A DNA stretch of 56,949 bases from the IMG/VR virus record IMGVR_UViG_3300044568_000318, positions 1 through 56,949 of that record, one strand, 5' to 3'. Under the pieces are notes generated by a model, which was not told the origin of the DNA, ran no database searches, and saw only the letters and a program-made list of their open reading frames with translations. Of the stretch, positions 27,721 to 56,949 are shown one piece after another. Position 1 is the stretch's first letter. Each line of letters opens with the position of its first letter. Position numbers and translations under genes: made by a program. The DNA comes from a virus.

Positions 27721-27753
27721 AGCCCTCCGGTAACACGGGGGGCTTTTTCTTTT
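27721..27753 (+). terminator. Intrinsic terminator after terL
   Basis: AGCCCTCCG-GTAACA-CGGGGGGCT, a 9-bp stem with one T-G pair, followed by TTTTCTTTT. It separates the terminase genes from the portal/capsid genes, so the latter need read-through or their own promoter near 27750-27790. Confidence 0.9.
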
Positions 27754-27797
27754 GCACAACACCTGTATACTTGTCGTGGGGCTACTGGAGATACTCC

Positions 27798-28037
27798 ATG
27801 AAGTGTGGTCAAGGTAAACCGTTCAAGTCCTACCAGATGGGTGGGCTTGTGACCAAGGGACCGGAGAAGGTCCCCCAGGACATCGACATGATCTCCTCGC
27901 TCAAGGGCAAGGAGCGTGCAGACGCTGAGAAGCGCATGGGGGTCAAGCCCCCGGCTCCTCGGGCTTCCGAGGCTGGTCTGACGGCTGAGCAGCGCAAGGC
28001 CATCATGCAGCGAGCTTCTGAAGCCAAGAAGAAGTGA
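27798..28037 (+). CDS. Small basic protein before portal
   Basis: A 79-residue Lys-rich protein from MKCGQGKPFKSYQMGG at the ATG at 27798, ending one base before the portal start. The N-terminal Cys/Gly/Lys stretch followed by a helical charged C-terminus (RKAIMQRASEAKKK) is common among small phage proteins that flank head genes. Function unknown. First gene after the terL terminator. Confidence 0.78.
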   Translation: MKCGQGKPFKSYQMGGLVTKGPEKVPQDIDMISSLKGKERADAEKRMGVKPPAPRASEAGLTAEQRKAIMQRASEAKKK

Positions 28038-28038
28038 C

Positions 28039-30096
28039 ATGGCCGGTCTGACATTCCTGCGGGTCGTCGGTAACGCTGAGCTTGCTCGTCAGGAGCAGGA
28101 GGCGGCGGACCGGGCGTTGCAGGCGCGTCAGAACCAGCCGGTCATCCTCGGACTGGCGTCGTACCTGCGGGGTTGCTGGGACCGGGCGCAGATTGCGAAG
28201 AAGCCCATCGAGAACGAGATGCTGCGTGCGCTGAGGCAGCGCAACGGTGAGTACGAGGCGGACAAGCTCAAGCAGATCCGCGATCAGGGTGGCTCGGAGA
28301 TCTACATGATGATCTCCGAGGTCAAGTGCCGTGCGGCTGAGTCGTGGCTGCGGGACATCCTGCTCGATACCGGCTCTCCCCCGTGGGACCTGGAGGCTAC
28401 GCCCATCCCCGACCTGTCGCCCACACAGTCCAGGGAGATCCAGTCCCAGTTCGCTGAGCGTGTGCTGCGCATGGTGCAGGAGTTCGGCAAGGCTCCCACC
28501 CAGGAGGAGATGGCCCAGATGCGCGAGATGGTCGCGCAGGACTACCGCTTCGCAGTGCTCCAGGGAGCACAGGTCCGGGCTGACCGGATGAAGCAGAAGA
28601 TCCAGGACCAGTTCGTCCAGGGCGGCTGGGAGTCAGCGTTCAACGACTTCATCACGGACCTCGTGACGTTCCCGGCTGCGTTCGTCAAGGGACCCGTCGT
28701 GCGCAGGCAGCGGGCCCTGGGGTGGAAGGTCGACGCCACGGGTCGCACCACGGTTGAGCCCATCGAGCGGCTGGCACCGGAGTACGAGCGGGTCGATCCG
28801 TTCTACATCTACCCCGAGCCGGGGATCAGCAACATCAACGAGGGCTACCTCTTCGAGTACCACCCGCTGTCGCGGATGCAGTTGTCCGACCTGATCGGCG
28901 TGCCTGGGTACGACGAAGATGCCATCCGCAAGCTGCTGGAGATCGGCAACGGGCAGTCGTGGATCAACGAGGATGTCGAGTTGATCAAGGACGAGGAGGA
29001 GCGCAAGTACTACTCCTACATGCGTCCGACCGACGTGTACGATGCCCTGGAGTTCTGGGGCAAGGTCAGCGGCAAGATGCTGCGGGAGTGGGGCATGTCC
29101 GAGGAGGACGTGCCGGACGACGCCCGTGAGTACGACGCCAACGTCTGGCTGGTGGGGAACTTCGTCATCAAGGCGGTGCTCAACTACGACCCGCTGGGCG
29201 AGAAGCCCTACACCAAGACTTCGTTCATCAAGTGCCCCGGTGCCTTCTGGGGCAAGGGCATCCCCAAGATCATCGAGGATCTGCAAGCCGTGTGCAACGC
29301 GGCGGCACGGGCGCTGGTGAACAACATGGGCATCAGCAGCGGACCCCAGGTCGAGGTCAACGTCGAGCGCATCCCGCCCAACGAGGACATCACTACGCTG
29401 TCCCCGTGGAAGATCTGGCAGACGATCAACGACCCCGTGGGGTCCAGTGCCCCGGCCATTCGCTTCACACAGCCTGAGTCGCGTGCGGCTGAGTTGATGG
29501 GGGTCTACGACAAGTTCAGCCGTCTGGCTGATGATCACTCGGGCATTCCGGCCTATGTGTATGGCGATCTGAACGTGCAGGGGGCTGGGCGTACGTCGTC
29601 CGGGCTGTCCATGCTCATGGGTGCTGCTGGCAAGGGCATCCGGCAAGTCGTCATGCACATAGACGCGGATGTGGTGAAGCCCATCGTCGAGCGGCAGTTC
29701 ATCTACAACATGCGCTACGACGACGATGAAGCCATCAAGGGCGACGTGCAAGTCATCGCCAAGGGCTCCATCAACCTCGCGGTCAAGGAGACCGTGAACA
29801 TCCGTCGAATCGAGTTCCTCAACGCAACCGCCAACCCCATCGATCTTGAGATCCTGGGCAAGGATGGACGCGCCACGATCCTCCGGGAGGTGGCGAAAGG
29901 GTTGCAGATGCCTGTGGAAGATGTTGTCCCGTCTCGGGAGAAGTCCGCGTACCAGGGCGGTATTCAGGCTAGGGCGATGGCGGCTGCGCAGGCGCAGCAA
30001 GCACAAGCCCCGGCACCAACTGGTCCCAGCGGCGAGCCCAAAGGTGGGATGGCAGCCAACACAGTGCAGAGTCGCATGAGCGGGAGGGCTGCATGA
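28039..30096 (+). CDS. Portal protein
   Basis: A 685-residue protein located after terL and before the scaffold and capsid genes. It has the look of podovirus-type portals: a long helical N-terminus, a central clip/stem region (YVYGDLNVQGAGRTSSG near 515-530), and a Gln/Ala/Pro-rich C-terminal tail of about 40 residues. It forms the ring through which DNA is packaged and ejected. The size is in the range of the large P22/T7-like portals. ATGA overlap with the next small gene. Confidence 0.9.
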   Translation: MAGLTFLRVVGNAELARQEQEAADRALQARQNQPVILGLASYLRGCWDRAQIAKKPIENEMLRALRQRNGEYEADKLKQIRDQGGSEIYMMISEVKCRAAESWLRDILLDTGSPPWDLEATPIPDLSPTQSREIQSQFAERVLRMVQEFGKAPTQEEMAQMREMVAQDYRFAVLQGAQVRADRMKQKIQDQFVQGGWESAFNDFITDLVTFPAAFVKGPVVRRQRALGWKVDATGRTTVEPIERLAPEYERVDPFYIYPEPGISNINEGYLFEYHPLSRMQLSDLIGVPGYDEDAIRKLLEIGNGQSWINEDVELIKDEEERKYYSYMRPTDVYDALEFWGKVSGKMLREWGMSEEDVPDDAREYDANVWLVGNFVIKAVLNYDPLGEKPYTKTSFIKCPGAFWGKGIPKIIEDLQAVCNAAARALVNNMGISSGPQVEVNVERIPPNEDITTLSPWKIWQTINDPVGSSAPAIRFTQPESRAAELMGVYDKFSRLADDHSGIPAYVYGDLNVQGAGRTSSGLSMLMGAAGKGIRQVVMHIDADVVKPIVERQFIYNMRYDDDEAIKGDVQVIAKGSINLAVKETVNIRRIEFLNATANPIDLEILGKDGRATILREVAKGLQMPVEDVVPSREKSAYQGGIQARAMAAAQAQQAQAPAPTGPSGEPKGGMAANTVQSRMSGRAA

Positions 30097-30308
30097 TCAA
30101 GCCCGGAACCCATGTGATCAAGTCGCTTGCCTCCGTGGCGCGTACGCACCCGGAGCTAGTGGAATGGCTTGAGGAGTGGCGCATGTCCGAACTGGAACGC
30201 CTACCCCAGGCCATTGCAAACCCGGCAGTCTTTCAGGGGCGCTGTCAGGTTCTCAACGAGGTTGTCGACCTCGTAAAGGCAGCCCCTGGTTTCGCGGCAA
30301 AGTTGTGA
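30093..30308 (+). CDS. Small helical protein after portal
   Basis: A 71-residue protein (MIKPGTHVIKSLASVARTHP...) coupled to the portal gene by an ATGA overlap. The middle, ELVEWLEEWRMSELERL, is a strong amphipathic helix, and the C-terminus repeats short helices. Proteins of this sort after the portal are often head-assembly accessories. Function not assigned. Confidence 0.82.
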   Translation: MIKPGTHVIKSLASVARTHPELVEWLEEWRMSELERLPQAIANPAVFQGRCQVLNEVVDLVKAAPGFAAKL

Positions 30309-30350
30309 TACTCGCCGTCTAGTCACGCACACCGATACGGAGCGTTCAAC

Positions 30351-31373
30351 ATGGCCCTTCCAGAGCAGATTCGCAAGCAGACCGAGGCAGTCCAGGAGTT
30401 GTACAAGCAACTCAACGCTGGGCAGGAATCAGGCGAGGAGACCCCTCAAGCCGATGAGCCTGTCACGCCCGTTGAGACCTCCGCCGCCGACGAGAATGCG
30501 CCGAATGACACTGCCGCTCCTTCACCCGCGCCTGAGCAGAAGACGGGTGATGACAAGGCCTCGGAAGATTTTGCCCAGAAGTACAAGACCCTTCAGGGTA
30601 TGTACAACGCTGAGGTTCCGCGTTTGCACCAGCGGATCCAGCAGATGGAGCAACTGCTCGCATCGCTGTCGTCGCAGCCCACCCCTGCTGCCTCTGCACC
30701 TGCCCCAGCACCGACGCTCACGAAGCTCGTGACTGAGAAAGATGTTGAGGAGTACGGTGACGCGATTGACATGATGCGCAAGGTTACCAAGGAGGAGATG
30801 AACGCTGTCATGCAGCGGATGTCTCAGCTTGAAAGTGTCTTGCAGCAGTTCCAGTCCAATGTCGTGCCGCAAGTTCAGGCGGTCGCTCAGAAGCAGGCGG
30901 TCACCGCCGAGCAACAGTTCTGGGCCGACCTGACCTCCGCAGTGTCGAACTGGCGTGAGGTCAACGACAACCAAGCCTTCCAGGCATGGCTGCTTGAGAT
31001 GGACCCGCTGACCGGGATCACTCGTCAGACGTATCTTGAAGACGCTCAGCGGGCGCTCGACGCCCGACGTGTCTCGGCGTTCTTCCGTACATGGCTGGAG
31101 TCCACTGGACAAGCCACCGTTGCTCAACCCCAAGGATCCTCATCCTCTACGGCGTCGAAGTCTGAGTTGGAGAAGCAGGTCACCCCCGGTCGCGCACGCA
31201 GCGCCGGAACCCCGCAAACCAACAAGGGCAAGGTCTATACTCCCGATGACATCAAGAAGTTCTTCAATGATGTCCGCTCGGGGAAGTACCGTGGCCGTGA
31301 GCAGGAGAGGGATCGTATCGAGCGCGATATCTTCAACGCCCAGCGTGAGAATCGCATCCAAATGACTGCATGA
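30351..31373 (+). CDS. Scaffold protein (putative)
   Basis: A 340-residue hydrophilic protein directly upstream of the major capsid gene. Asp/Glu/Pro-rich N-terminal 90 residues, a helical/coiled-coil core (YNAEVPRLHQRIQQMEQLLA; MQRMSQLESVLQQFQ), and a basic C-terminal end (RENRIQMTA). This composition and position fit the internal scaffold that is removed before or during packaging. No protease gene is seen nearby. Confidence 0.85.
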   Translation: MALPEQIRKQTEAVQELYKQLNAGQESGEETPQADEPVTPVETSAADENAPNDTAAPSPAPEQKTGDDKASEDFAQKYKTLQGMYNAEVPRLHQRIQQMEQLLASLSSQPTPAASAPAPAPTLTKLVTEKDVEEYGDAIDMMRKVTKEEMNAVMQRMSQLESVLQQFQSNVVPQVQAVAQKQAVTAEQQFWADLTSAVSNWREVNDNQAFQAWLLEMDPLTGITRQTYLEDAQRALDARRVSAFFRTWLESTGQATVAQPQGSSSSTASKSELEKQVTPGRARSAGTPQTNKGKVYTPDDIKKFFNDVRSGKYRGREQERDRIERDIFNAQRENRIQMTA

Positions 31374-31389
31374 TTCGAGGACACACATC

Positions 31390-32325
31390 ATGTCGTACCC
31401 TGTTTCCCCCGGCCGCCCGAACTACAGCGGCAACTTCATCCCCGAGATCTGGTCCGGGAAGCTCATCGAGAACTTCTACGACGCCACGGTGCTCGCGGCC
31501 ATCTCCAACACCGACTACGAAGGTGAGATTCGCCAGTACGGCGACACGGTGAACATCCGCACTACGCCGGAGATCACGATTCGTGACTACGTCAAGGGCC
31601 AGACCCTGACGGTCGAGAACCCGGACAAGCCGAAGATCCAGCTTCTGATCGACAAGGGCGAGTACTTCGCCTGCGTCGAGGACGATGTGGACAAGGTTCA
31701 GTCCGACATCAACCTGATGGACACGTGGTCGAAGGACGCCTCCGAGCGGATGAAGATCAAGATCGACCAGCGCGTTCTGACCGACATCCTTCCGGGTGTG
31801 GCGTCGACCAACAAGGGCGCGACGGCTGGCGCGATCTCGGCATCGTTCAACCTGGGCGTTACCACGTCCCCGTTGACCGTGACCAAGGACGGCGCTGGCA
31901 GCACGACGGCTGTGATCGATCTGCTGGTCGACCTCGGCACGGTGCTGGACGAGGCGAACTGCCCTGAGGACAACCGCTTCGTGGTCATCCCGGCCAAGAT
32001 GGCTGGCCTGATCAAGAAGTCGGAACTGAAGGACGCTTCGCTCACGGGCGACGGCACCTCCATCGTCCGCAATGGTCGCCTGGGCATGATCGACCGCTTC
32101 ACGGTCTACATGAGCCACAACCTGAAGAAGGCGTCGGTGGGCGGCGCTACCGAGTTCAGCCTCATCGCTGGGCACAAGATGGGCTTCACGTTCGCGTCCC
32201 AGATGACGAACATGGAAACCATCCGCTCGGAGTCGACCTTCGGCAACATCATCCGTGGCCTCCAGGTCTACGGGTACAAGGTCACCAAGGGCGAGGCCCT
32301 GGCGACCTCCGTCATCAAGTTCTGA
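31390..32325 (+). CDS. Major capsid protein
   Basis: A 311-residue protein with the features of an HK97-fold coat: N-terminal arm with few charges, then GEIRQYGDTVNIRTTPEIT (E-loop-like), a spine helix with DASERMKIKIDQRV, and a C-terminal A-domain ending FGNIIRGLQVYGYKV. It lies between the scaffold and the head-decoration-like genes. Length is typical for phage coats not requiring N-terminal processing. Strong AGGACACACATC leader ribosome site and a compact gap to the scaffold gene. Confidence 0.92.
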   Translation: MSYPVSPGRPNYSGNFIPEIWSGKLIENFYDATVLAAISNTDYEGEIRQYGDTVNIRTTPEITIRDYVKGQTLTVENPDKPKIQLLIDKGEYFACVEDDVDKVQSDINLMDTWSKDASERMKIKIDQRVLTDILPGVASTNKGATAGAISASFNLGVTTSPLTVTKDGAGSTTAVIDLLVDLGTVLDEANCPEDNRFVVIPAKMAGLIKKSELKDASLTGDGTSIVRNGRLGMIDRFTVYMSHNLKKASVGGATEFSLIAGHKMGFTFASQMTNMETIRSESTFGNIIRGLQVYGYKVTKGEALATSVIKF

Positions 32326-43343: not shown

Positions 43344-43702
43344 ACTGGTCCGACTACCCCAACTTCTCCGAGGTCGAGTTCCGTTGTCGGCACTGCGGCA
43401 AGGCGGAGATGAAGCCGGAGTTCCTTGCCAAGTTGCAGGAGCTTCGGCTTGCGTACGGGCGTCCCATGAATGTCTCTTCCGGCTACCGCTGCCCGGACCA
43501 CCCCATCGAGAAGGCCAAGCCTGAGCCCGGTATGCACTCCACGGGGCTGGCAGCAGACGTTGCCGTCCTGGGTACCGATGCCTTCGAGATCGTGCGCCTG
43601 GGGCTGCAACTGGGCTTCACGGGCCTGGGTGTGCAGCAGAAGGGCACCGGCAGGTTCATCCACCTGGACATCCGCAAGACGCCAATGGTCTGGAGCTACT
43701 GA
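43340..43702 (+). CDS. Endolysin, M15-family zinc D-Ala-D-Ala peptidase
   Basis: A 120-residue protein with a GTG start in a GTGA overlap with the holin. It contains MNVSSGYRCPDHP, the MHSTGLAADV motif (SxHxxGxAxD, zinc His and Asp) and FIHLDIR (second His). These are the ligands of the peptidase M15_3 family. It cuts the peptide cross-links of the peptidoglycan at the end of infection. N-terminal CRHCG is an extra cysteine pair. No signal peptide, so it needs the holin. Confidence 0.93.
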   Translation: MNWSDYPNFSEVEFRCRHCGKAEMKPEFLAKLQELRLAYGRPMNVSSGYRCPDHPIEKAKPEPGMHSTGLAADVAVLGTDAFEIVRLGLQLGFTGLGVQQKGTGRFIHLDIRKTPMVWSY

Positions 43703-46122
43703 TGGCTGGCGTCAAGATCACCACGTTCCTCGGTACTGCGCCGAAGATCTCCCCTGAGTTGCTGCCCAACACGGCAGCGCAGATCGCATCGAACTGCAAA
43801 CTGTACTCAGGTGACCTGATCCCCTATCCGCAGCCTGTGGTGACCGCCAACACGGGCCGTGTCGGCACGATCAAGACGCTGTACGCCCTGCGCAACCCGA
43901 ACAACTCTGCTGACCTGAAGTGGCTGTCCTGGCTGACGAACGTGGACATCGTCACGTCCATCGAGACCGATACGGAAGAGCAGCGGTTCTACTACACCGG
44001 GGACGGCGTGCCGAAGGTGAGCACGTACGCCCTGGCTACGGCGTCGGCTCCGTATCCTGCGGGATACTACGACCTTGGTCTGCCGCTTCCTCCGGAGTCC
44101 GCCACGCTCACGACGACTGCGGCTACGTTCACGCAGAAGACCTCAGCGAGCTTCGCCCGAGACACGAGCAACATCGCCACCCTTGTCACGGGCACGGCGC
44201 ATGGACTGCGCACGGGCAACTCGGTCACGGTATCGGGGTTCTCGTTTCGCACCGGCACATACAACCAAGCAGGCACGACCACCATCACGGTGACGATCAC
44301 TGGTCACGGTCTGTCGAACGGAGCTACTGTCTCGCTGGACTTCACGTCTGGCACGGCGAACGACGGCTCCTTCGTTGTTAGCAACGTCGCGCTCAACACG
44401 TTCGACGTTGTTGCTACAACATCGGCTACCACGAGTGGCGATGTCCGGATGGACATCCGGAGTTTCAATGCGACCAACGTGGAGTGCACGGTGGTCAATG
44501 CGACGACGTTCACCTACTTCAGCCCAGGTCCGTCTGTAGCGACAACCACGTCGACGGATGGCAAGGTGGACCTCGGGGGGCTCACGCAGGCGCGTTCGTA
44601 CGTCTTCACGTGGTATACCCCCTGGGATGAGGAGTCCGTGGCCTCCAAGCCCTCAGACAACCTCTTCATCAAAGAAGGCATCACGGTCACGGTGAGCAAC
44701 CTGCCCACTGCTGCTCCTTCCGGCAGCAACTTCATCCGTGGTGTGCGGCTGTATCGGACGCTGGCGTCCGCCTCCGGTACCGAGTACTTCCTCCTCAAGA
44801 CGCTGTGGTTTCCCACGGCGCTTGCCAACGTCCAGCGCACGAGCAACGTCTCCAGGGTGCAGTTGGCGTTCCCACACAACTTCGCCATCGGAGACCGGTT
44901 CAAGATCAGCGGCTGCTCGGTGGCGTCGTTCGACATCACGGGCGGCATCGTCACCGACATCATCGACGACAATACGTTCGAGTACGCCCAGGCGGCTGCT
45001 GATGTCGCCAGTACTGTGGCTACGGGTACGCTGTACCACGATGTCTCTCAGAACCCGCCCACGACTGCGGCTCGGTACTGGGGTGATGCGACGTACGATT
45101 TCACCGACGACTTCGACTCTACGCTTCTGCTGGACATCCTGGGGTCCGACGAGTACGACCCGCCGCCCGACGACCTCAAGGGGTTGACGGCTATCCAGAA
45201 TCAGGTCCTCTGCGGGTTCGTGGGCAACAAGCTGTACTTCTCGGAAGTCGGTCGCCCACATGCGTGGCCCATCGGCTACGCCCAGACCATCGAGCATCAG
45301 ATCGTGGGCATTGCGCCCCTGGGTGGCTCCGCGCTGGTGATGACCGATGGCTACCCTTACGTGGTGCAGGGCTCGGACCCGGCGTCGTTGTCCGTCGCTC
45401 GCGTGGACGTGCTGTACCCATGCCTGAACAGTCGCAGCATCGTGGCGATGAACTACGGCGTCGTGTACTCCACGCACGACGGGCTGGCCGTGGCTTCCCC
45501 CGGTGGTACCCAACTGATCACGCGGCTGCTGTACAACAACGACACGTGGCAGACTGAACTCAACCCCTCGACGATTGTGGCTGAGTACTACGGAGACGCC
45601 TACTTCGCCTCGCATTCGGCGGGGTCGTTCGTCTTCGAGCGTGATGAGCGCGTGGGCGGGTACTTCGTCGACACTCCATACATCTTCACCGCTTCCTGGT
45701 ACGACAGTGTCACGGGCAAGCTGTACTACGTCAGTGGGACCAACGGCGACATCTACGAGTGGGACAACCTCTCACAGCCTCCTGTCACGCAGGAGTGGAA
45801 GTCCAAGGTCATTGTCACTGCGAACATGATCAACCTGGGCGCAGCCCGCGTCATCGCTGACTACGCTGCCGAGACGGCTACCTGGGACTCGGTGTCCACG
45901 CAGTGGCAGAACACCACTGCGACGTGGAGCAGCGTCGACCCGGTGACGTTCAAGCTGTGGGTGGACAAGCAGCTTCTCTACACCACGACCGTGGCGGACA
46001 AGGACACGTTTCGCCTGCCCACCGGGTACCGGTCAGACACCTTCGAGGTGGGCGTGGAGAGCAACATCCGGGTGCGGGCAATTCACTTAGCTGAGACGGC
46101 CCTGGGTCTGCGGGAGGTCTGA
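43702..46122 (+). CDS. Large tail protein, nozzle/propeller type, with FCCH-like repeats
   Basis: An 806-residue protein starting at the ATG in TGATG with the endolysin stop. N-terminal LPNTAAQIASNCKLYSGDL is common to podovirus tail (gp10/gp12-like) proteins. Two or three repeats with TGTAHGLRTGNSVTVSG, ITGHGLSNGATVSL and FPHNFAIGDRFKISG resemble FCCH-type beta modules. The second half has propeller-like blades (QNQVLCGFVGNKLYFSEVG; SRSIVAMNYGVVYSTHDGL). It probably forms the tail nozzle or stabilises the portal exit. Function is inferred from architecture and position. Confidence 0.85.
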   Translation: MAGVKITTFLGTAPKISPELLPNTAAQIASNCKLYSGDLIPYPQPVVTANTGRVGTIKTLYALRNPNNSADLKWLSWLTNVDIVTSIETDTEEQRFYYTGDGVPKVSTYALATASAPYPAGYYDLGLPLPPESATLTTTAATFTQKTSASFARDTSNIATLVTGTAHGLRTGNSVTVSGFSFRTGTYNQAGTTTITVTITGHGLSNGATVSLDFTSGTANDGSFVVSNVALNTFDVVATTSATTSGDVRMDIRSFNATNVECTVVNATTFTYFSPGPSVATTTSTDGKVDLGGLTQARSYVFTWYTPWDEESVASKPSDNLFIKEGITVTVSNLPTAAPSGSNFIRGVRLYRTLASASGTEYFLLKTLWFPTALANVQRTSNVSRVQLAFPHNFAIGDRFKISGCSVASFDITGGIVTDIIDDNTFEYAQAAADVASTVATGTLYHDVSQNPPTTAARYWGDATYDFTDDFDSTLLLDILGSDEYDPPPDDLKGLTAIQNQVLCGFVGNKLYFSEVGRPHAWPIGYAQTIEHQIVGIAPLGGSALVMTDGYPYVVQGSDPASLSVARVDVLYPCLNSRSIVAMNYGVVYSTHDGLAVASPGGTQLITRLLYNNDTWQTELNPSTIVAEYYGDAYFASHSAGSFVFERDERVGGYFVDTPYIFTASWYDSVTGKLYYVSGTNGDIYEWDNLSQPPVTQEWKSKVIVTANMINLGAARVIADYAAETATWDSVSTQWQNTTATWSSVDPVTFKLWVDKQLLYTTTVADKDTFRLPTGYRSDTFEVGVESNIRVRAIHLAETALGLREV

Positions 46123-46474: not shown

Positions 46475-47242
46475 ATGAACTTCCTCACCCCCAACCCTGC
46501 GCCGACTACGTCGCTGGACCTGCCGCCCGCGCTTGCCAGCCTCATGTCGATGTCCACCACTCAGACGCCGGACATGACTGCCCAGGCTCCGATGACCCCT
46601 GTTGGGCTGAACACGGCCATGCCTGCACAACCCACGTTCATGCCGCAGTTCCAGGAGGGCGGCTCCGTGGAGCCCACGATGGCGGGACTGAACCCGCAGA
46701 TGCAGACCGGTGGCCCGATGGATGGGCAGATGCTGGAGATGCAGATCAACCAGTTCGCCAGTCAGCACCCGGAGCAGGTGCAGATGATGCAGCAGGCCAT
46801 CGCAGAGGTCATGCAGACCGGACAGTTGACCCCACAGGAACTCAACACTGTTGTCCAGTTGGCAACGGTCGCTGCGCAGAACCCGGAGATGTACCCCTAC
46901 GTACGCAAGTTCGCCATCCAGCAGGGCATCGCCACCGAGCAGGACCTACCCCCGCAGTACGACGAGGGGCTGGTGTTCATCCTGCTCCTGGTGGGGCGTG
47001 CAGTTCAGCGACAGATGGGTGGTGGTATGGGCGGCATGGAGCAGGAGGGCGAAGAGGACGATGAGTACGAACTCGAAGCCACTATCCCCACCATGAAGAA
47101 AGGCGGGGCGATGAAGAATCCTGACAGCAAGCCTGTACTTGCCATGCTGCATACGGGAGAATACGTCATCCCCGAACACATCGTCCGTGAAAAGGGGACC
47201 GCCTTCTTCGACCGCATGATCGGCAAGGATCAGATGAAATGA
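46475..47242 (+). CDS. Virion-associated protein, Met/Gln/Gly-rich
   Basis: A 255-residue protein from MNFLTPNPAPTTSLDLPPAL; a GTG at 46469 is an alternative. It is rich in Met, Gln and Pro, with an acidic middle (EQEGEEDDEYELE), and ends with VLAMLHTGEYVIPEHIVREK and FFDRMI, a motif found in phage proteins involved in virion or injection-complex assembly. Located at the start of the internal-virion-protein block. Confidence 0.78.
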   Translation: MNFLTPNPAPTTSLDLPPALASLMSMSTTQTPDMTAQAPMTPVGLNTAMPAQPTFMPQFQEGGSVEPTMAGLNPQMQTGGPMDGQMLEMQINQFASQHPEQVQMMQQAIAEVMQTGQLTPQELNTVVQLATVAAQNPEMYPYVRKFAIQQGIATEQDLPPQYDEGLVFILLLVGRAVQRQMGGGMGGMEQEGEEDDEYELEATIPTMKKGGAMKNPDSKPVLAMLHTGEYVIPEHIVREKGTAFFDRMIGKDQMK

Positions 47243-47664
47243 TGCAGATCGAGATGCTCACACCCGCACGGGTCACGGAGTTGTGGCCTGTGCTGGAGCC
47301 GTTGTTCACGGCTGCGTGTGAGGGCAACGAGATCGCCAAGGACGAACTCGAAGCAGGCGACATATACGTCCTTACACAAACTGACATGGCCGTTGTGTTC
47401 GTGGGCTTCGAAGGCGCTGACCCCGCCTGCATCATGGCGTTGCAGTTCAACACCACCAATGGTCGCAAGGGTGCGGACGTGATCGCTCTCGCAGGGCGCA
47501 ATCTCATGAAGTTCAAGGCTGCGTACTGGGATACGATCCTGGATTGGCTTCGTGCCAACGGTGTACAGTTCCTCGATGCCTACGCTCCTGATCGCCTTGC
47601 CCGCATCTACCGCAGCAAGTTCGGCTTCAACAAGTCCTGCTCGTACGTAAGGATGTCGCTATGA
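47239..47664 (+). CDS. GNAT-like (T7 gp13-like) internal protein
   Basis: A 141-residue protein (MMQIEMLTPARVTELWPVLE...). The sequence order of strand-helix, YVLTQTDMAVVFVGFEG and C-terminal YRSKFGFNKSC agrees with the GNAT acetyltransferase fold. In T7-like phages a GNAT-like protein (gp13) is an internal virion protein encoded before the ejection proteins, and the position here is the same. Enzyme activity is not certain; the acetyl-CoA loop is not clear. Confidence 0.8.
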   Translation: MMQIEMLTPARVTELWPVLEPLFTAACEGNEIAKDELEAGDIYVLTQTDMAVVFVGFEGADPACIMALQFNTTNGRKGADVIALAGRNLMKFKAAYWDTILDWLRANGVQFLDAYAPDRLARIYRSKFGFNKSCSYVRMSL

Positions 47665-48944
47665 GCAAAGCTCTCAAGACCGTTATCACGGTCGCAGTCG
47701 GGGTCGCAATCCCGTTCGTTGCGCCTATGATCGCAGGCTCTGCCGCACTGGCAGGCGTCGTCGGCACTATCGGAACTACCGCCACCTCCGCCCTTGTCGG
47801 TGCAGGCATCAACGCAGCCACAGCCGCAGCCCTAGGAGGGAACGTCGAACGAGCGGCGTTAACAGGGGGCATCGGCGGTGGGATGGGTGGCTACTTCAAC
47901 GCGCCGGGTATGCCTTCTGCCCCTTCTGCGCCAACGGCAACTGCGGCGTCGGGGGCGCCCATGAGTGTGCCTTCGCAGACCGTGTTCGACCCCACGTCTG
48001 GTGCATTCGTTCAGCAGGCTGTGCCGCAGATGAGTTACGCCCCCGGCACGGCCCCTGTCATGCTGTCGACCGGGAATCTTGCCCCGCAGATTCCGGGGCT
48101 TCTTGAGGCGCAGACTGCCACCGCTGGTTTGTCTGGCCTTTCGCAGGCTATGGCGGTGCCGACTACGGAGCAGCTTGCTGGTATGGGTGTATCCCCGGCA
48201 CGTCAGGCTGGGCTGGGCGTAACACCTACTGCACAACAAGTTCAGGCTGCCGCTCAAGCTCCAGTTGCAGGAGTCACGACCACGGGTGCCCCGCAGACCT
48301 TCACGGAAGCCGTACAGCGCATCCCAGGGGAGATCGCCGGTCGGTTCCGGGACCCCAAGGCCCTGGCTGACATGACGCTGCGTGCCGCTGGTGCGCTTGC
48401 GGGCTCTGCCTTGGCGGGTCAGGGGCTGTCTCCCGAAGAGAAGCGACTGCTGGACGAGCAGACGCAGGAACTGCGGCAACTGCGTGAGACGAACCTCAAC
48501 CTGTTCAACCAGCGCCTGGAGGCCGCACAAGGTCTGCTCGGTGAGGCCAAGTACTTCGACCCCGAGTACTTCGGTCTGCAACGTGCCCGCAAGGCACAGG
48601 TGGCGGGTGCTGTCGCCAAGCAGGCAGGACTGCGCGGACTTCGGGGTGAGCGTGCTGCTGCGGAAGCGCGGCGGTACGACATTGCCACCGGTCGCAACGT
48701 GGGTACTCAGTTCGACGTGGGCTACCAGACTGGCGTCCAGGGTCGCCTGGGTACGATGCAGGCTGGACTGACCGCCATGCCGGGGCCGATGAGCATGACT
48801 TCTGGATACGAGAGTATCCGTGGGGCGTACAACGAGGAAGAGCGCCGTCGCCGCCAGCGGGAGCAGGATATCGGATCCTTGTTCGGGTCGTTGACTGGTG
48901 GTAGCCAGTCTAAGTCGCCGGGGCTTCGACCCCCTGGTGGTTGA
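47661..48944 (+). CDS. Internal virion (ejection) protein 1
   Basis: A 427-residue protein with a very hydrophobic Ala/Gly N-terminus (about residues 10-75, VAVGVAIPFVAPMIAGSAAL). A Pro/Ala/Thr-rich middle follows, then a charged helical region (LLDEQTQELRQLRETNLNLF). The C-terminus is basic and Gly-rich. Hydrophobic start plus long helices matches podovirus ejection proteins that insert in the host envelope. ATGA overlap with the GNAT-like gene. Confidence 0.8.
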   Translation: MSKALKTVITVAVGVAIPFVAPMIAGSAALAGVVGTIGTTATSALVGAGINAATAAALGGNVERAALTGGIGGGMGGYFNAPGMPSAPSAPTATAASGAPMSVPSQTVFDPTSGAFVQQAVPQMSYAPGTAPVMLSTGNLAPQIPGLLEAQTATAGLSGLSQAMAVPTTEQLAGMGVSPARQAGLGVTPTAQQVQAAAQAPVAGVTTTGAPQTFTEAVQRIPGEIAGRFRDPKALADMTLRAAGALAGSALAGQGLSPEEKRLLDEQTQELRQLRETNLNLFNQRLEAAQGLLGEAKYFDPEYFGLQRARKAQVAGAVAKQAGLRGLRGERAAAEARRYDIATGRNVGTQFDVGYQTGVQGRLGTMQAGLTAMPGPMSMTSGYESIRGAYNEEERRRRQREQDIGSLFGSLTGGSQSKSPGLRPPGG

Positions 48945-48953
48945 GGAGAGATC

Positions 48954-50750
48954 ATGGCTCTGGGACGACTTCTTGGCGGGGCGGGTGTTGTCGCGTCTTC
49001 AATGCGGCAGGCCGAGGAGGCTGAGCGTGTCGCACGGCAGAATCAACTCAAGATCGAGGAGATGAACCGTATAGCGGCTCAGCAGGCCCCTGCTGGGCTT
49101 GCTGACATTCCGGCGACTGCGCCAAGCTACACATCCTTTCAGTTCCCAGGCGTCATGCCTATGGAGCAAGTTGCTCCTCCGGCTGCTCCGACTGCTCCTG
49201 CGGCTCCGGCTATGCCCGCTGCGCAGCCCATGTCGCGGGAACAGGCCGCGTTCATGGAGGCCAACGTCGAATACCCACCTGTGGGGTCAGGGCGGGAGGC
49301 ACCTATGCCTGCTGTTCCCACTGCACCTGGGGAGACCCCGACGCAGGCTTCGACAAGGACCCTGAGACAACTGCTGGATCAACAAGCCTCTCTGATGCAG
49401 GCGCTACGGGGGGCCAAGGGGGGTGGGCGCGAACGTGCTGCGATCTACGCGCAACTTCGTGAGTTGGAGCCACAGATTGCTGCGGCCCGTACCGCTATGC
49501 AGATGGGTGCTCGTGGGCTTGCTGTACCGACAGTCATGCCCGGTCCTGCGGCGGTTCCTCTACCCGCTGCTCCCGCCCCGGCTCCTACCCCTGCACCCGC
49601 ACCTGCCCCTGCCCCTGCTCCTGCCCCTGCTCCTGCTTTTGCTCCTGCGGCGGCTCCCATTCCCGCTGCTCCTGTTGCTGAAAGAGTCATAGCTCCGGAG
49701 GTTCAAGCTCAGCGAGACGCCGAAGCCGCTCGCATGGTGGCTGCTGAACTGGGTACGCTCGACCGCGCCGATGCACGTCTTCGAGAGATTGACGCTGAGA
49801 TCAAGCGGAACACGAACAACGAGGCCCGAGTCATTCTGCGGGCTGAGCGTGCTAGGGTAGATGCAGCCCGTCAACTGTTGTTGGGTGCTCCTGCCGCAGC
49901 CCCGACTCCTGCACCATCCATCCCGCCGCAGGCTACAGCATCCCCTGTCGCGCAGAACACGGCCAACGCGGTGCTGGCAGCTACGCCGATCCTCATTCAG
50001 ACCGATCCTGCACGCTTGTCGCAAGCCATGCAGGACACACAGGCGTTTGCTCAGCAGCAGCGGGCGCTGCTGGTTCGCCAGCGCAACGATCAGGCACAGC
50101 TTGCGCGGATGTACATGAACAGCGTCAGCGTTGGGCCGGAGGTGAAGCAGCGCCTCATGGCACAGGTCGGACAGGCCGACCTCGCGCTACAACAGTTCGA
50201 CATGCAGATGCGCGATGCCATGATCTACATGCAGGGGATGCAAGGACTGCAAGAGTTCGCCGCTACGAACAACCCGAGCCGTCTCGTCGGCGTGTGGAGT
50301 TACTTCACCGGAGCCCCCATCGGCGTGCAACCCCGTAGTGACGGGAAGTTCAACTTGTTCTATAACGGAGAGAAGTCCCAGGAAGGGCTGACCAAGCAAC
50401 AGGTTCAGGAATCTGCACAGGTTGCCATGTTTGAGTCGGCACGAAAAGCCATTGCTGAGTCCGCCGCGTTTGAGAACAAGTTGGCACTGGAAGCTAAGCA
50501 CGGACCTGCACGTATGAACGCCATGAAAGACATCTGGGTTGCCATCATCAACGGGCAAGCAGACCTCGCTAAGAAACAAGCGGAGGCGGCTCAGGGTAAG
50601 CTCACGGTGGACAGCGCAGGTAATGGTGCGTGGCTGGAGTACCCAACTGGAGTCTTCTGGGTATCACGGAATAACAAGCCGGTCGAAGTACCGGGCGTTG
50701 GAAGCGTCACGCCGGTCACTGCTCAGCGGATCACTGGCCTTGGAAGGTAA
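48954..50750 (+). CDS. Internal virion (ejection) protein 2
   Basis: A 598-residue protein starting MALGRLLGGAGVVASSMRQA. A helical N-terminus is followed by a long Pro/Ala repeat (PAPAPTPAPAPAPAP; about residues 200-240), coiled-coil segments (DARLREIDAEIKRNTNN; ARMYMNSVSVGPEVKQRLM) and a globular C-terminal domain. Order between ejection protein 1 and the giant protein supports a role in the internal core/ejectosome. Stop followed three bases later by the giant gene start. Confidence 0.8.
   Translation: MALGRLLGGAGVVASSMRQAEEAERVARQNQLKIEEMNRIAAQQAPAGLADIPATAPSYTSFQFPGVMPMEQVAPPAAPTAPAAPAMPAAQPMSREQAAFMEANVEYPPVGSGREAPMPAVPTAPGETPTQASTRTLRQLLDQQASLMQALRGAKGGGRERAAIYAQLRELEPQIAAARTAMQMGARGLAVPTVMPGPAAVPLPAAPAPAPTPAPAPAPAPAPAPAPAFAPAAAPIPAAPVAERVIAPEVQAQRDAEAARMVAAELGTLDRADARLREIDAEIKRNTNNEARVILRAERARVDAARQLLLGAPAAAPTPAPSIPPQATASPVAQNTANAVLAATPILIQTDPARLSQAMQDTQAFAQQQRALLVRQRNDQAQLARMYMNSVSVGPEVKQRLMAQVGQADLALQQFDMQMRDAMIYMQGMQGLQEFAATNNPSRLVGVWSYFTGAPIGVQPRSDGKFNLFYNGEKSQEGLTKQQVQESAQVAMFESARKAIAESAAFENKLALEAKHGPARMNAMKDIWVAIINGQADLAKKQAEAAQGKLTVDSAGNGAWLEYPTGVFWVSRNNKPVEVPGVGSVTPVTAQRITGLGR
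49556..49672 (+). repeat. Pro/Ala codon repeat (CCT/CCC-GCT/GCC)n
   Basis: A run of alternating Pro and Ala codons within the ejection-protein-2 gene, for example CCTGCCCCTGCTCCTGCC repeated with small changes. It encodes a flexible linker. Such repeats can slip during replication or assembly, so the exact copy number may vary between isolates. Confidence 0.75.
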
Positions 50751-50753
50751 CTC

Positions 50754-53700
50754 ATGGCAACCGCAGGTCTGTCGCTAGGAAGTTCGTTTCTTCCGGCGTC
50801 TGGCGAAGTCCCTTCGCCTGTTGTCAACCCATACGAACTGCGAGCTTCTGGGCTCAGCGGACTTGGGTCTAGCGCAGCCGACATTGCATCCCTGGGCGCA
50901 CAGGGTGTTGCGATGTTCTCGAACCGGCTGAAGCTGCCGGAAACGAAAGAACCGACGATTGCCTACAGTGGATCCAAGAAGCAGTTCTTCGTCCAGGGCA
51001 CGACGTTCGACGCTGATGATGCAGACGCGGCGCTTCGCTCCGAGCAACTTCTTGGTGGGGTACCCACGGGTTTACCCGAAGGTGACTGGATCCCGCTGAC
51101 TACCCAGCAGTACGGACAACTTCTTCAGTCGATTCGCCAGCCTGGGCTGGGCACCCTGGCGTCCAAGGGATTCGGGCGTGGGGTCGACATCAGCCAGATG
51201 CTGGTGGGCCGTGGCTTGCAGCTTGCCGGTGCCGAAGAGTTGGGTGGCCGCATCGTTGCCCAGCAGATGGAGGATCTGCGTAAGACCCAGCCGTACGAAC
51301 GACAGTTCACGGATGTCAAGTCTGGCGGGGACGCAGTTGACTGGCTGGTGGCGAACTTCGCCCAGCAAGGTCCGAACCTGATCGAGTCCATCGTCACGGC
51401 TGGCCTTGGCTTCCTGGCTGGTACTGCCTCTTCCGGTAATCCGTTGGGTGGGGCTGCGGCTTCGCTTGCCAGCGTCATCGGTAAGGAGACATGGAAGAAC
51501 TCGGTCAAGGACGCACTGAAGAAGCGTGCTGCTGGTGAGGCGTTGACCCCAGACGCAGAGAAGTTGTTGCGAACCGCCGCAGGCGTGGGGATGGCTACCG
51601 CCGTCACGTTCGGTCAGGGCATGGCTACTGGCGCTGCTGACATCTACGGTGAACTGCGTGAGCGCGGGGCCGATGCTGATGATGTAACCGCCCGGATGAC
51701 CGCCTTGAAGGGGTCTGTGCCGTACGCCTTGTTGGACATCCTGCCGGAGGCAGTGCTGTTCAGTCGCCTGCTGGGGCGTGGTGCACGTCCCGCGTTGGGC
51801 ACGCTGCCCACTGCTCGCGCCAAGGCCCTGGAGGTTGCACAGCGCGGGCTTGTCGGTGGTGCTGTGGGTGGCGCAGCCGGAGGCACTTCAGAACTGGGGC
51901 AGGAAGCACTGCTTCTCTATATGTCGGACCAGGAACTTGGTTCGCCTGAGAACGTCAAGCGGCTGATCAACTCCTTCGCCGCAGGTGCTGCGGTCAGTGG
52001 CCCCATCGGCGCTGGCGTCAACATCTTCAACCCGTCGAACCTACTGCAACCAGGCACCTCCACCGACCCCACGGGGACTCAGCAGCCGGTCACGCCGACG
52101 CTGCCTGCCAGCGCACCTCGCGGAACTCAGGGCGAGCTGTTCCCCATCGCTCCTGGGGAGATGGCAGGTCCTGCGTTCTCGCCGCTCCCTCCTCGACCCG
52201 CTCCGGGCGTCGTGCCTGCACAGCCTGGGCAGATGGCGCTGTTCGAACCGACTGCGCCCACGGTTGCGTCCAGGATGGAGCGCGGCATGATGCCGCCTGG
52301 GCCGATGGCGCAGGGTCAGTTGGCTCTGGTCGGTGGTCAGGTTGCGCCGGGATACGTGCCGCCGCAGGCGTTCGCTCCTGAGGTTCCAGCAGTCCCTGGC
52401 TTGTCTTCGCAAGAAGCCGCCGCACAAGGTGCGCTTCAGTTCGCTCCGCCTGCTCCTGAGGGTCGCCCGGTTGGCACTATGGCTAACCAACTCCAGGCCA
52501 TCGTGGACCGACAGCGCCGCGAGCGTGAGCTTGCCGCCATCGAGGCCCAGCAGGCCGCACAGCGTGAGGCAGACCTGGAACGACTGGCCGTTCAGGCTAC
52601 GAATCAGCGACTACTGGAACAAGCAGGACTTGCCGAAGCGCCTGCGCCCGCACCGGCCCTGCCGATGGTGCCCATCACCCCCCGTCAACCGCAGCAGTTG
52701 CCGCTGTTCACGCGCCGTCAGGCTCCGGTCCCGCCGAAGGCAGGGCAGTTGCGCCGTGGGCGCAAGATGCAGCCCGCTCCTGCTGCACAGCCCGACCGTG
52801 GCATCCGGCAGGCGACGTTGCAACTGCCGATGTTTACCGCTACGGGTGAGCCTTCGCTGCCCGCGCTCAAGGCTGCTGGTACCCGGAAGAAGGTCGCTGC
52901 TGCGCCCGCCCCTACACCTGCGAAGAATACTGCCGGTGCTCGTGGTCTGAAGAAGGGTGCCAAGGTCGCAGAGATCAATGTCGCAGAAGCTGAACGTCCT
53001 GAAGTTGCTACGCAACGAGCTACGCTAGAAAGATTGCTTCCCAAGGAAACTGGCAACTTGAAGTTGGAAAAAATTACTGCTTATGCTGGTAACTGGCGTG
53101 TGTCGTACATTACCGCCGATGGCCGTAGCGGTAACAGTATGCCAGTCAATGCTGAGGATTTGGTTGGGAAAACGGACGCTGAGATTAAAGTAATGCTGGC
53201 TGACCGTGCCCGAAAGAACGGATTAAAAGAAGTCGCAGATGCCATTGAAACAAGGAACCTCAAACAAGGTCGTGTCGCAAAACGTGCGGAAGATCGTACG
53301 GGAGTGGGAGCAGGGGGGAACGCTGGGCAACAGCCCCCGACCCAAGAGCAAGGCGCAGGCCGTCCGGCAGGCGGTCGCGGCGTCGCTCTCAAGCGCGGGA
53401 AGAAAGCAGAAGTAGCTCCAACAGCCAAGGTCATCCCGCTGAAGCGAAAAGAAACAGCACCTACTCCGGCAACGGTTGAGACTCTGGTTCGCTTCCGTTG
53501 GACAGACGGCACCCGTGGAGCGTATGTTGTGCTCAGCAACGGTAAGGTTGTTGAACTGTACGCATTCGACACCAACACGTGGACCTCACCTGCTGTAGCG
53601 GAGGACGTGACGTTGGGCACTACCCTGCAAGAGGCAGCCCAGGAGGTTGCTTCTCGGGAGGGTACTGCACAAGAAGTGCCCGCTGTCTCAGAGGCCCGCA

Positions 53701-56700
53701 AGACTGAGCTTCTGAAAGAGAAGCCGAAGACCCGCAAGGAACTGACGTTTGAAGAGCGTCGGACCATGCAGTTGGATGAGGAAGAGGACGCTGCCGAGGC
53801 AGTCCCACCGAAGAAGGAGCCCCCGCCCCCAAAAGGTGAGGCGGCGGTTACGCCGCCTGCTCCCGCACCCGGTGAAGGCTTCCTCGACTCCACGAAGTAC
53901 GTCTACCACGTAGTACGCAGTGATGCCGACATCCCCGGCATCATGAAAAGCGGGTTGCGTCCGGGCTCTAACGTCAGTTTCGACACCGATGGTCAGGCGT
54001 TCTCGGGCGAAGGCGACACGATTCTGGTCTTCCTCCGTGAAGCTGTTAGCCCCGACACCAAGGAGTACCAGGGCGATGGCGTAACGACCAAGGCCGCCAA
54101 GCCAGTGGCAATCCTGAAGGACACCTCGGTGGAAGCCGGAGGTGGGACCAAGCAGGACCTGGAAGAACAAGCTGCTACGGCGCAGGAAGAGTTCGACAAG
54201 CTTGTCGAGTACTCACAACGTGAGTACGGGCTCTCTCAAGGAGATGTCGAAGCATACGCCTGGGGCACCAAGAAGATCACGGCTGCACCGGCAGAAGCAC
54301 AGCCGTTGATGAAGCGACTGCGTGCGTTGTCTGCCCGAGTTGATAGGCTGCTCGAGGAAAGCGAGCGTGCACCGGACACCGCTGTTTCCGCAGAGACTGT
54401 GCTTGCTAAGTACACGCAGTACGACGTGCCGGTACAGCAGGTGGTGATCGAAGCGCAGGACGATGGGCAGCTAGTAACGCTAGGTGTGAAAGCTCCCACA
54501 CGCACAATCTCCGCTGAGGACCAGTGGAACGAAGAGCGACTGCCTGGGGATGTGGCTTTCGTCGATCTGCCGAAGTCTGCCAAGGACCGGTGGGAGGCGT
54601 CCGACCGCTCGGGTGCTGCGCAGGTTGTGATCCTGCAAGAAGTCGGTGACCAACTGTTGCCGATGACGCCGACTGAACGGCTGAACTACGCCATCGCAGC
54701 CGCCTCCGCTGCGATGGATGCGGCCAACATCGACGGCTTCACGAACACCATCGACACGATTGTCGAGGTGGCGTACTTCACCCCTGGAGACGACTACACC
54801 AAGGCGCAGCAGGCCGAGGCGCTTCAGTTCCTGTCTGACCCGGACGACTTCAACGGGGCAGAGCAGCAAGCGATCCAGGATTCCTTCGTGGTTGCCGCTG
54901 AAGGCAAGACGCTGGAGACCACCACCAAGAAGACCAAGACCGGAACCGGCGAGGCAGGTGCCTATCGCCCGTGGTACTCCTACGCCCTGGACACACCGGG
55001 CATGATCCAGCGGCTCTCCACCGTCAACGTGGTGTTCAGTTCGATACCGGAAGCCGAAGCCCGCAGACTCCTCAGTGACGGCTTGATCACACGGGCCAAC
55101 CTGCCTGTGTCTACGGCCAACAGGATCCTCGGCAAGGAAGTGACAGCCAAGGAGGACAGCGAAGCCAACCCACAGCGCAGTCCGCTGTTCTACCTGCTGG
55201 AGGAGATCACCAAGCTCAACAGCAGCACCGCACCGCTGAACGCTAAGGCTCAGAAGGCTGCCATTGAACGGTTGCGTGCGTACTACGCCGCTGCACTTGA
55301 GCAGGACCTCGACACGGCGCAGGTGGATCAGTACTTCCGCACCGATGGCACGCCCATCACAGCCAAGATTGATGATCTGTTCCGTGTTCTCAACGAAGAG
55401 GACTACAACAACCGTGGCGCACTGGAAGCGGCAAGCCGCGCAGAACGCAAGGCAGCAGATGCTGCCAAGCGTGGCCCCACGATCAGCACTTTCGATGACT
55501 GGGAAGAGGACGGACGGTTCTTCAGCGACGACAACGTGCCGCTCAAGCCGATGGGTGCCGGACGCATCCGGATGGCCGTTACCAAGTTCCTGAGCAAGCT
55601 CAAGATCAAGCCCACGGTTCACGTCTTCCGCAACCAGGAAGACCTCAAGGCCAGCAACCCCGAGTTGTACCGCCGCGCCGTGGCTGCACGCCCACAGGGT
55701 GACTTCGATCTCACGCCTGCTGCGGGCTACTCGTTCGGGCAGGACCAAGTCATCATCTTCTCTGACCGCATCCGTACCGAGAGACATCTGAACTTCGTCC
55801 TGGCGCACGAGACGCTGGGTCACTTCGGTCTGCGAAGCATCCTGCCGAAGGACAAGTTCAACGCGGTGATGGAGGACATCTACAACAGAAGCGACAACGT
55901 GCGCCTTGCGGTGGACGCCGCGATGGATGTCCGCGACATGCCGAAGGCTGAAGCAGTCGAGGAGTACCTCGCTGACTTCGCAGCCAACCTGGATGTCAGC
56001 CTCATCGCTCGTGTGTGGAACGCCATCAAGGACGCACTCAACGCACTGGGCATCCGGTTCGGTGACGAGGCTGCACGGTTCTGGGTGAGTCAGGCACGAC
56101 GTTATGTCCGCACTGGGCAGACCTCTTCGCTCTTCACCGTGCAAGATGTCATGGCGCGAGTGCAGGCTGTCGAGACGGCCGATGACCCTGACAATACGGG
56201 GCGCTTCGTCGTGGCTGGTGACTTGCGGATGGACAACATCCGCGCTGCCGACCTGATGCAGGACGTTGCCACCGGGTTCTCGAACATCACCGAAGCGACC
56301 AAGAGCCTCAAGGGTGTGCTCGGCAACACGCAGGAGAGCGTGGACAAGTTCCTGGCCCAGGTGTTCAGCCTGATGAACTTCCGCGCCCGTGAGAACGCAG
56401 GTGCCTACGAAGTGGATCGGGTGTTGCGCAGGGGCCGTGGCATTGCGATGGAGGTGCGCAACGCGCTCAACGAGAAGCTGGCACCCATGCTCAGCCGTGC
56501 GGTCGAGGTACCGTTCAGCAAGATCACGTTTGGTGGTATCACTGAAGTCCAGTACGAGCAGGCCAACCGCCTCCTGTACGCCGCACAGCGGCTGAAGTTC
56601 AGCACCATCCCGACGCCATCTGAACTGGGCCGCACCCCGCTGTATCGGGTGAACCCGGACACGGGCGAACTCATCCCCAACCAGACCGAGATCGACCGGC

Positions 56701-56949
56701 TCTACAACATGGGGCTGATAACGCTGGAGCAGGCCCGGGATGGATTCACGTACAAAGACACGTACATGGATGCCGGGGAGGAGAAGACCGAAACCGTTCG
56801 TGTTGCAGGTATCCCCGGGCTGACCAAGGACAGCCCAGAGTGGAAGGCGTACATCGTCACCCGTGAGGCCATGCGTGATGTGGAGCTTGAGCTTCTTCGT
56901 GCACGGTACCTGTCGTTCACTCAGGAGCGCGACTTCGCCTTCCGCGAGA
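50754..56949 (+). CDS. Giant polyvalent virion protein, N-terminal two thirds (continues at 13..2970)
   Basis: Starts at the ATG at 50754 (MATAGLSLGSSFLPASG) after a GGAAGGTAACTC site and stays open to the right end, then into the left end; total about 3,009 residues. N-terminal 430 residues are Gly/Ala-rich with repeated hydrophobic patches (GLGFLAGTASSGNPLGGAAA). A Pro-rich linker (about 440-1045) contains repeated L-x-LF motifs. Near 1048 a domain begins KYVYHVVRSDADIPGIMKSG, similar in outline to ADP-ribosyltransferase-type folds (weak). Residues 1685-1690, HETLGH, give an HExxGH zinc-peptidase motif with FGL after it, as in the metallopeptidase domain of phage polyvalent proteins, followed by EEYLADFAAN. 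Probably ejected into the cell; roles in the host are inferred. Confidence 0.9.
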   Translation, partial: MATAGLSLGSSFLPASGEVPSPVVNPYELRASGLSGLGSSAADIASLGAQGVAMFSNRLKLPETKEPTIAYSGSKKQFFVQGTTFDADDADAALRSEQLLGGVPTGLPEGDWIPLTTQQYGQLLQSIRQPGLGTLASKGFGRGVDISQMLVGRGLQLAGAEELGGRIVAQQMEDLRKTQPYERQFTDVKSGGDAVDWLVANFAQQGPNLIESIVTAGLGFLAGTASSGNPLGGAAASLASVIGKETWKNSVKDALKKRAAGEALTPDAEKLLRTAAGVGMATAVTFGQGMATGAADIYGELRERGADADDVTARMTALKGSVPYALLDILPEAVLFSRLLGRGARPALGTLPTARAKALEVAQRGLVGGAVGGAAGGTSELGQEALLLYMSDQELGSPENVKRLINSFAAGAAVSGPIGAGVNIFNPSNLLQPGTSTDPTGTQQPVTPTLPASAPRGTQGELFPIAPGEMAGPAFSPLPPRPAPGVVPAQPGQMALFEPTAPTVASRMERGMMPPGPMAQGQLALVGGQVAPGYVPPQAFAPEVPAVPGLSSQEAAAQGALQFAPPAPEGRPVGTMANQLQAIVDRQRRERELAAIEAQQAAQREADLERLAVQATNQRLLEQAGLAEAPAPAPALPMVPITPRQPQQLPLFTRRQAPVPPKAGQLRRGRKMQPAPAAQPDRGIRQATLQLPMFTATGEPSLPALKAAGTRKKVAAAPAPTPAKNTAGARGLKKGAKVAEINVAEAERPEVATQRATLERLLPKETGNLKLEKITAYAGNWRVSYITADGRSGNSMPVNAEDLVGKTDAEIKVMLADRARKNGLKEVADAIETRNLKQGRVAKRAEDRTGVGAGGNAGQQPPTQEQGAGRPAGGRGVALKRGKKAEVAPTAKVIPLKRKETAPTPATVETLVRFRWTDGTRGAYVVLSNGKVVELYAFDTNTWTSPAVAEDVTLGTTLQEAAQEVASREGTAQEVPAVSEARKTELLKEKPKTRKELTFEERRTMQLDEEEDAAEAVPPKKEPPPPKGEAAVTPPAPAPGEGFLDSTKYVYHVVRSDADIPGIMKSGLRPGSNVSFDTDGQAFSGEGDTILVFLREAVSPDTKEYQGDGVTTKAAKPVAILKDTSVEAGGGTKQDLEEQAATAQEEFDKLVEYSQREYGLSQGDVEAYAWGTKKITAAPAEAQPLMKRLRALSARVDRLLEESERAPDTAVSAETVLAKYTQYDVPVQQVVIEAQDDGQLVTLGVKAPTRTISAEDQWNEERLPGDVAFVDLPKSAKDRWEASDRSGAAQVVILQEVGDQLLPMTPTERLNYAIAAASAAMDAANIDGFTNTIDTIVEVAYFTPGDDYTKAQQAEALQFLSDPDDFNGAEQQAIQDSFVVAAEGKTLETTTKKTKTGTGEAGAYRPWYSYALDTPGMIQRLSTVNVVFSSIPEAEARRLLSDGLITRANLPVSTANRILGKEVTAKEDSEANPQRSPLFYLLEEITKLNSSTAPLNAKAQKAAIERLRAYYAAALEQDLDTAQVDQYFRTDGTPITAKIDDLFRVLNEEDYNNRGALEAASRAERKAADAAKRGPTISTFDDWEEDGRFFSDDNVPLKPMGAGRIRMAVTKFLSKLKIKPTVHVFRNQEDLKASNPELYRRAVAARPQGDFDLTPAAGYSFGQDQVIIFSDRIRTERHLNFVLAHETLGHFGLRSILPKDKFNAVMEDIYNRSDNVRLAVDAAMDVRDMPKAEAVEEYLADFAANLDVSLIARVWNAIKDALNALGIRFGDEAARFWVSQARRYVRTGQTSSLFTVQDVMARVQAVETADDPDNTGRFVVAGDLRMDNIRAADLMQDVATGFSNITEATKSLKGVLGNTQESVDKFLAQVFSLMNFRARENAGAYEVDRVLRRGRGIAMEVRNALNEKLAPMLSRAVEVPFSKITFGGITEVQYEQANRLLYAAQRLKFSTIPTPSELGRTPLYRVNPDTGELIPNQTEIDRLYNMGLITLEQARDGFTYKDTYMDAGEEKTETVRVAGIPGLTKDSPEWKAYIVTREAMRDVELELLRARYLSFTQERDFAFRE
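56824..56949. repeat. Terminal redundancy, right copy
   Basis: Identical to bases 11-136. Here the upstream sequence continues the giant reading frame (GIPGLTKDSPEWKAYIV), which shows that this copy has the true left flank and that the first ten bases of the window are aberrant. Confidence 0.9.

Follow-up and report, generated by a model that had tools for sequence, protein, structure and literature searches.

A 3,009-residue zincin-bearing gene divided by the ends of a virus record, and its probable role as a giant ejection protein of a short-tailed phage

The window analysed here is the whole of IMG/VR virus record IMGVR_UViG_3300044568_000318 (56,949 nt), and the element in question is a giant gene that lies across its two ends. 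An open reading frame (ORF) of 2,065 residues starts near the right end, which it reaches without a stop, and a second ORF is already open at the left end. Residue numbers, here and below, are those of the joined protein of 3,009 residues. The features at the record ends are the following.

50754–56949, plus strand: giant gene, first 2,065 codons and one base (open frame; ATG start preceded by AAGG)
1–2970, plus strand: giant gene, last part (residue 2066 is codon 136–138; stop at 2968–2970)
56824–56949, no strand: end redundancy, right copy, 126 nt (exact match to 11–136; single copy in record L002, see below)
11–136, no strand: end redundancy, left copy (repeats the record's right end)
1–12, no strand: probable fold-back assembly artefact (reverse complement of 29–40)

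Joining the ends at the repeat gave a frame of 9,030 nt with a single terminal stop; base composition alone would produce so long a frame with a probability of about 7e-43. A separate IMG/VR record of 19,863 nt, IMGVR_UViG_3300044858_000541 (L002), runs through the join and has the repeat once. It agrees with the window over 2,790 nt on the upstream side and 9,814 nt on the downstream side, with one mismatch across the whole match. In two relatives, L004 and L005, both halves are found within one uninterrupted ORF. Because L002 crosses the join with a single repeat copy, the split is due solely to the point at which the record was cut, and the two parts form one 3,009-residue gene. The single copy in the continuous L002 sequence further suggests that the map is circular or permuted, and that the 126 nt reflect overlap in its assembly and not a physical terminal repeat. 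Bases 1–12 (TGTACGCCTTCC) probably represent a small fold-back assembly artefact, and the mismatch at the window start hides the end repeat from a simple end-repeat test run from base 1. A preliminary description of this DNA had proposed the split gene, and the re-permuted frame bears this out, with no internal stop and an end at 2970. The 126-base redundancy that it reported is exact, but starts at base 11, not at base 13 where re-entry of the frame had been placed. Its expectation that a linear annotation would miss the gene, or call a 970-residue fragment only, did not hold, since a caller set to accept open-ended genes would give two partial genes, of 2,065 and 970–989 residues.

Along the joined protein, the following parts were distinguished.

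50754–52043, plus strand: N-terminal module, residues 1–430 (Gly/Ala-rich; hydropathy; conservation in relatives)
52044–53873, plus strand: Pro/Ala-rich linker, about residues 431–1040 (composition)
53886–54488, plus strand: ART-like segment, unconfirmed, residues 1045–1245 (YHVV...IPGIMKSGL; alignments)
54489–55523, plus strand: variable helical region, residues 1246–1590 (AlphaFold model, pLDDT mostly 80–90)
55536–56123, plus strand: predicted zincin-type metallopeptidase domain, residues 1595–1790 (best conserved block, 56–63% mean identity)
55806–55823, plus strand: HETLGH active-site motif, residues 1685–1690 (H1685, E1686, G1689 and H1690 invariant)
55950–55970, plus strand: EAVEEYL, residues 1733–1739, candidate third zinc ligand (E1733, E1736 and E1737 invariant)
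1369–2901, plus strand: PLxRFG domain, about residues 2477–2987 (NCBIfam NF032893; PHROG 11358 and 21376)
2098–2154, plus strand: hydrophobic segment MYMLAALFVLGGITAFPFA, residues 2720–2738, inside the PLxRFG domain (Kyte-Doolittle 1.85)

Relatives of the giant protein were found, by a search with a C-terminal alignment, at 42 viral loci, some of which are overlapping fetches of one contig (L005 and L018; L006 and L040). None was found in the GTDB genome contigs of 84,980 species. Twenty full-length relatives, 2,462–2,947 residues long, were compared (L018 and L005 being one contig). In blocks of 100 residues, their mean identity to the window protein was 0.31–0.42 for residues 1–400, 0.02–0.23 for 401–1600, 0.56–0.63 for 1601–1800, and 0.36–0.61 onward to residue 3000, a profile which sets an N-module and a conserved zincin/C-module apart from the variable middle between them. 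Gly/Ala hydrophobic repeats, a Pro-rich linker of some 600 residues and a membrane-like segment near the C-terminus had been remarked on before. All three were recovered, as Gly/Ala-rich segments whose hydropathy peaks near residues 209–227, 318–340 and 404–422, as a fast-evolving Pro/Ala-rich stretch at about residues 430–1040 (5–23% mean identity across relatives), and as hydrophobic residues 2720–2738.

The seven residues of the zincin signature (H1685, E1686, G1689 and H1690 of HExxGH; E1733, E1736 and E1737 of EAxEE) were 100% conserved in the full-length relatives (20/20), and HExxGH was also present in every further locus covering its region; the HETLGH motif of the preliminary description is thus part of an invariant set. 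In the AlphaFold model (pLDDT 72), the domain consists, in order, of a helix, strands, the helix of HExxGH and, further on, the helix that bears the glutamates, the same order as described for the zincins of polyvalent proteins (PMC5512222). Both the invariant residues and the modelled secondary structure match an HExxH helix followed by a helix with a conserved Glu. Structural matches in BFVD (E 1e-7 to 5e-4) include some named ‘Large polyvalent protein associated domain-containing’ and ‘Phage MuF C-terminal’, in a table silent on which part of the model the matches cover. A Pfam search with the zincin segment alone, to E 10, revealed no significant family, and PADLOC gave a weak CapP match over the region (E 0.026). 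The domain is predicted to be a zincin-type metallopeptidase, and its peptidase activity is putative.

Downstream of the zincin, the C-terminus is long and mainly helical, and ends in the PLxRFG domain. Its last 510 residues or so match NF032893 (PLxRFG, ‘tail-700’) with 133.8 bits, above the curated cut-off of 100, and also match PHROGs 11358 and 21376. Profile searches had been suggested as a check in the preliminary description; Pfam scans of both gene halves gave no significant family, and the NCBIfam match, absent from that description, is the strongest family assignment of the protein. For the first 2,065 residues, no PHROG match was found, nor any tblastn match (1e-5) among 50,697 phage records, N4 included. 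In the Protein Data Bank (PDB), profile searches turned up nothing but weak helical matches.

The variable middle differs among relatives in content. In the relative L034 (6107–9400) it holds MORN repeats (E 6.8e-10), a further sign of exchangeable cargo. For the helical region at residues 1246–1590, a structure search returned helical-repeat-type matches, none of them significant. The segment proposed earlier to be ART-like is present, according to the alignments, only in the window and L002 and in the relative L017. It shows a YH motif and a strand pattern, with a beta part modelled mostly at pLDDT 37–70; a Pfam search up to E 10 and tblastn against phages found nothing. An ART-like fold is possible but unconfirmed, so that this part of the preliminary description was not established and a second effector activity is unproven.

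In one contig (L040 2230–14590, also fetched as L006) the giant gene is found as two ORFs, a 916-residue N-module and a 1,999-residue zincin/C-module, separated by about 3.6 kb where a GP4 gp80-like fibre gene (PF23140) lies among other ORFs. If the assembly is right, this fits separable modules. The same contig has a twin-arginine-signal-like stretch (SRREFFKGLGAVVAAG) inserted right ahead of the HExxGH region. At another locus (L051 6208–14094) the giant frame consists of three overlapping ORFs, probably the result of sequencing frameshifts.

The giant gene is the last of a conserved virion cassette, a late-gene context, with terminase, portal/adaptor and major head protein encoded at 26286–32325. 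The cassette order (proteins of 806, 116, 257, 141, 427 and 598 residues, the giant, and a convergent primase) recurs in most of the relatives that have long flanks; in a few relatives some members are too diverged to be seen. The neighbours that bear on the role of the giant protein are listed below.

43702–46122, plus strand: 806-residue virion protein (related to PDB 8jov and to PHROG 511, internal virion protein)
47661–48944, plus strand: 427-residue neighbour, candidate partner ejection protein (hydropathy 2.19; synteny)
48954–50750, plus strand: 598-residue neighbour directly upstream of the giant gene (its L040 counterpart holds a GH108 muramidase domain)
2967–5840, minus strand: primase/helicase-like gene, convergent (conserved right-hand neighbour of the giant gene)

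The match of the 806-residue protein to PDB 8jov has an E-value of 1.8e-63; the PDB protein, labelled there only ‘virion-associated phage protein’, comes, we presume, from the tail of Ralstonia podophage GP4. The 427-residue protein has a strong N-terminal membrane segment. The GH108 muramidase domain lies in the L040 counterpart (355–2226) of the 598-residue protein, and the window protein is without it. A muramidase in such a neighbour is as expected for crossing of the cell wall, and supports a role in ejection. The 141-residue protein (47239–47664) looks GNAT acetyltransferase-like by eye and has no Pfam match; an N-acyltransferase is annotated near the equivalent position in Rhizobium phage RHph_TM27A.

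Giant proteins with a PLxRFG C-terminus also occur in cultured phages. NF032893 matches those of F116, Rollin, RHph_TM27A and Mel-JY34 with 305–798 bits, and upstream of the C-terminus one or two HExxH motifs are found in Pseudomonas phages F116, 8P and Rollin, Rhizobium phage RHph_TM27A and Microcystis phage Mel-JY34. The giants of Rollin, RHph_TM27A and Mel-JY34 have Gly/Ala-rich N-terminal stretches too, as in the window protein. Profile comparison of the cultured giants with the window C-terminus gave an hhalign probability of 99.9, whereas sequence identity is about 25% and limited to the C-terminus. The window zincin profile reaches Rollin (E 1e-7) and RHph_TM27A (E 2e-5), but not F116, 8P or Mel-JY34. 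Two further differences are that the F116 and 8P giants carry two HExxH motifs, and that F116 has a separate 2,129-residue protein, annotated as methyltransferase, upstream. In H66, Epa33 and 8P, the relatives bear the annotation ‘structural protein’. The Rollin gene (L057 15452–22006) is annotated as the oligopeptide ABC transporter OppA; its product carries HEMGH and PLxRFG (365.8 bits), and by its sequence features this annotation is wrong and the product is a giant protein of the same kind.

Two described systems offer a comparison. Polyvalent proteins (Iyer et al. 2017, PMC5512222) are very large, are encoded in a late-gene context and have the zincin-like metallopeptidase as the commonest domain of the class. 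The window protein shares these traits, and BFVD matches bear the large polyvalent protein associated domain name. In contrast, it has no Pfam match in either half and a second enzymatic domain (ART) is unconfirmed; as to the two or more domains with unrelated activities by which polyvalent proteins are recognised, it carries the zincin and PLxRFG, and an ART-like segment without a family match. The earlier designation as a polyvalent virion protein is thus supported by zincin, gene context and BFVD matches, while presence in the virion is what we infer. The second system is the virion RNA polymerase (vRNAP) of phage N4 (gp50, Schitoviridae), which is ejected and consists of a membrane N-domain, a low-complexity linker, a cargo, an HExxH domain C1 and a helical domain C2 (PMC12633501). 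The order of parts is the same in the window protein, and its gene is likewise the last after smaller ejection-protein genes. Unlike N4 vRNAP, no RNA polymerase domain was detected in the window protein, and its C-terminus has PLxRFG, which that of N4 lacks. By this analogy, the window protein most likely works like the N4 ejection protein without belonging to that family.

We therefore consider the product of the gene to be, very probably, a giant internal protein that a short-tailed phage ejects. The protein would be packed in the head, its PLxRFG C-terminus most likely serving encapsidation, and would exit with or before the DNA, alongside the smaller proteins encoded by its neighbours. Its N-terminal part would lodge in the cell envelope as an anchor, and the remainder would reach the cytoplasm. 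The zincin may cut the giant protein itself in the disordered linker, freeing modules, before packaging or after entry. Such autoprocessing, to which we give about an even chance, was proposed for polyvalent proteins by Iyer et al., citing P1 DdrB (PMC5512222).

Several observations weigh against this picture. The N-terminal hydropathy of the giant protein is modest, and the L040 split could reflect an assembly join. Sequence profiles of the window C-terminus and that of N4 with nine further Schitoviridae gave an hhalign probability of 0.2 (E 0.33), so that no homology between the two was detected. Foldseek against the PDB with both multi-domain models, and VIA-align with the first, gave nothing convincing, the PDB lists of the first model being filled by helical repeats so that its zincin and ART parts were barely probed. 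Finally, N4 vRNAP is packaged unprocessed despite its HExxH (PMC5512222).

This last point also favours a variant in which the ejected giant does not process itself, and the zincin instead acts as an effector on host proteins after entry. Iyer et al. allow both roles (PMC5512222), and the weak CapP match in PADLOC is in line with an effector. Conservation speaks the other way: the zincin is the best conserved part and the adjacent putative cargo is exchanged, a pattern more easily reconciled with a housekeeping function in ejection or processing than with a weapon aimed at a particular host. We regard a host effector as a possibility to be kept in mind, though the less favoured one.

A tape-measure protein of a long-tailed phage is improbable, in spite of the length, the hydrophobic Gly/Ala segments and the NCBIfam model name ‘tail-700’. 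Among the genes scanned (some small genes were unscanned) there was no tail-tube or tail-terminator family, and the upstream 806-residue protein is related to the PDB 8jov protein and PHROG 511. Many C-terminus relatives occur in phages with podovirus names (vB_PaeP_E220, vB_PalP_Y7), yet two are in vB_PaeM and one in vB_SbaS phages. The middle of the protein varies freely in length and content among relatives, unlike a ruler. That the join is false, leaving two genes and a 126-nt overlap by coincidence of assembly, can be practically dismissed: it is favoured by the linear form of the record and by 10 initial bases that mismatch the join, but L002 crosses that join and relatives hold both halves in one ORF.

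If the giant protein is ejected, its arrangement might, more speculatively, reflect a general podovirus ejection chassis composed of a membrane N-module, a disordered linker, an exchangeable cargo slot, a zincin and a helical packaging C-terminus. The slot would be filled by RNA polymerase in N4 and by other, uncharacterised cargo here, and the zincin would free the cargo. We hold this generalisation only tentatively.

The giant protein is a further member of the already described class of polyvalent/giant ejection proteins, ordinary though very large. Its recovery restores to annotation a 3,009-residue gene that would appear in two pieces if the record were treated as linear. It also links the uncultured phages of the 42 loci, as a family, to cultured ones that encode a giant protein of this kind. 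The invariant zincin motif, next to a fast-changing middle, offers a testable case for the role of zincins inside ejected phage proteins.

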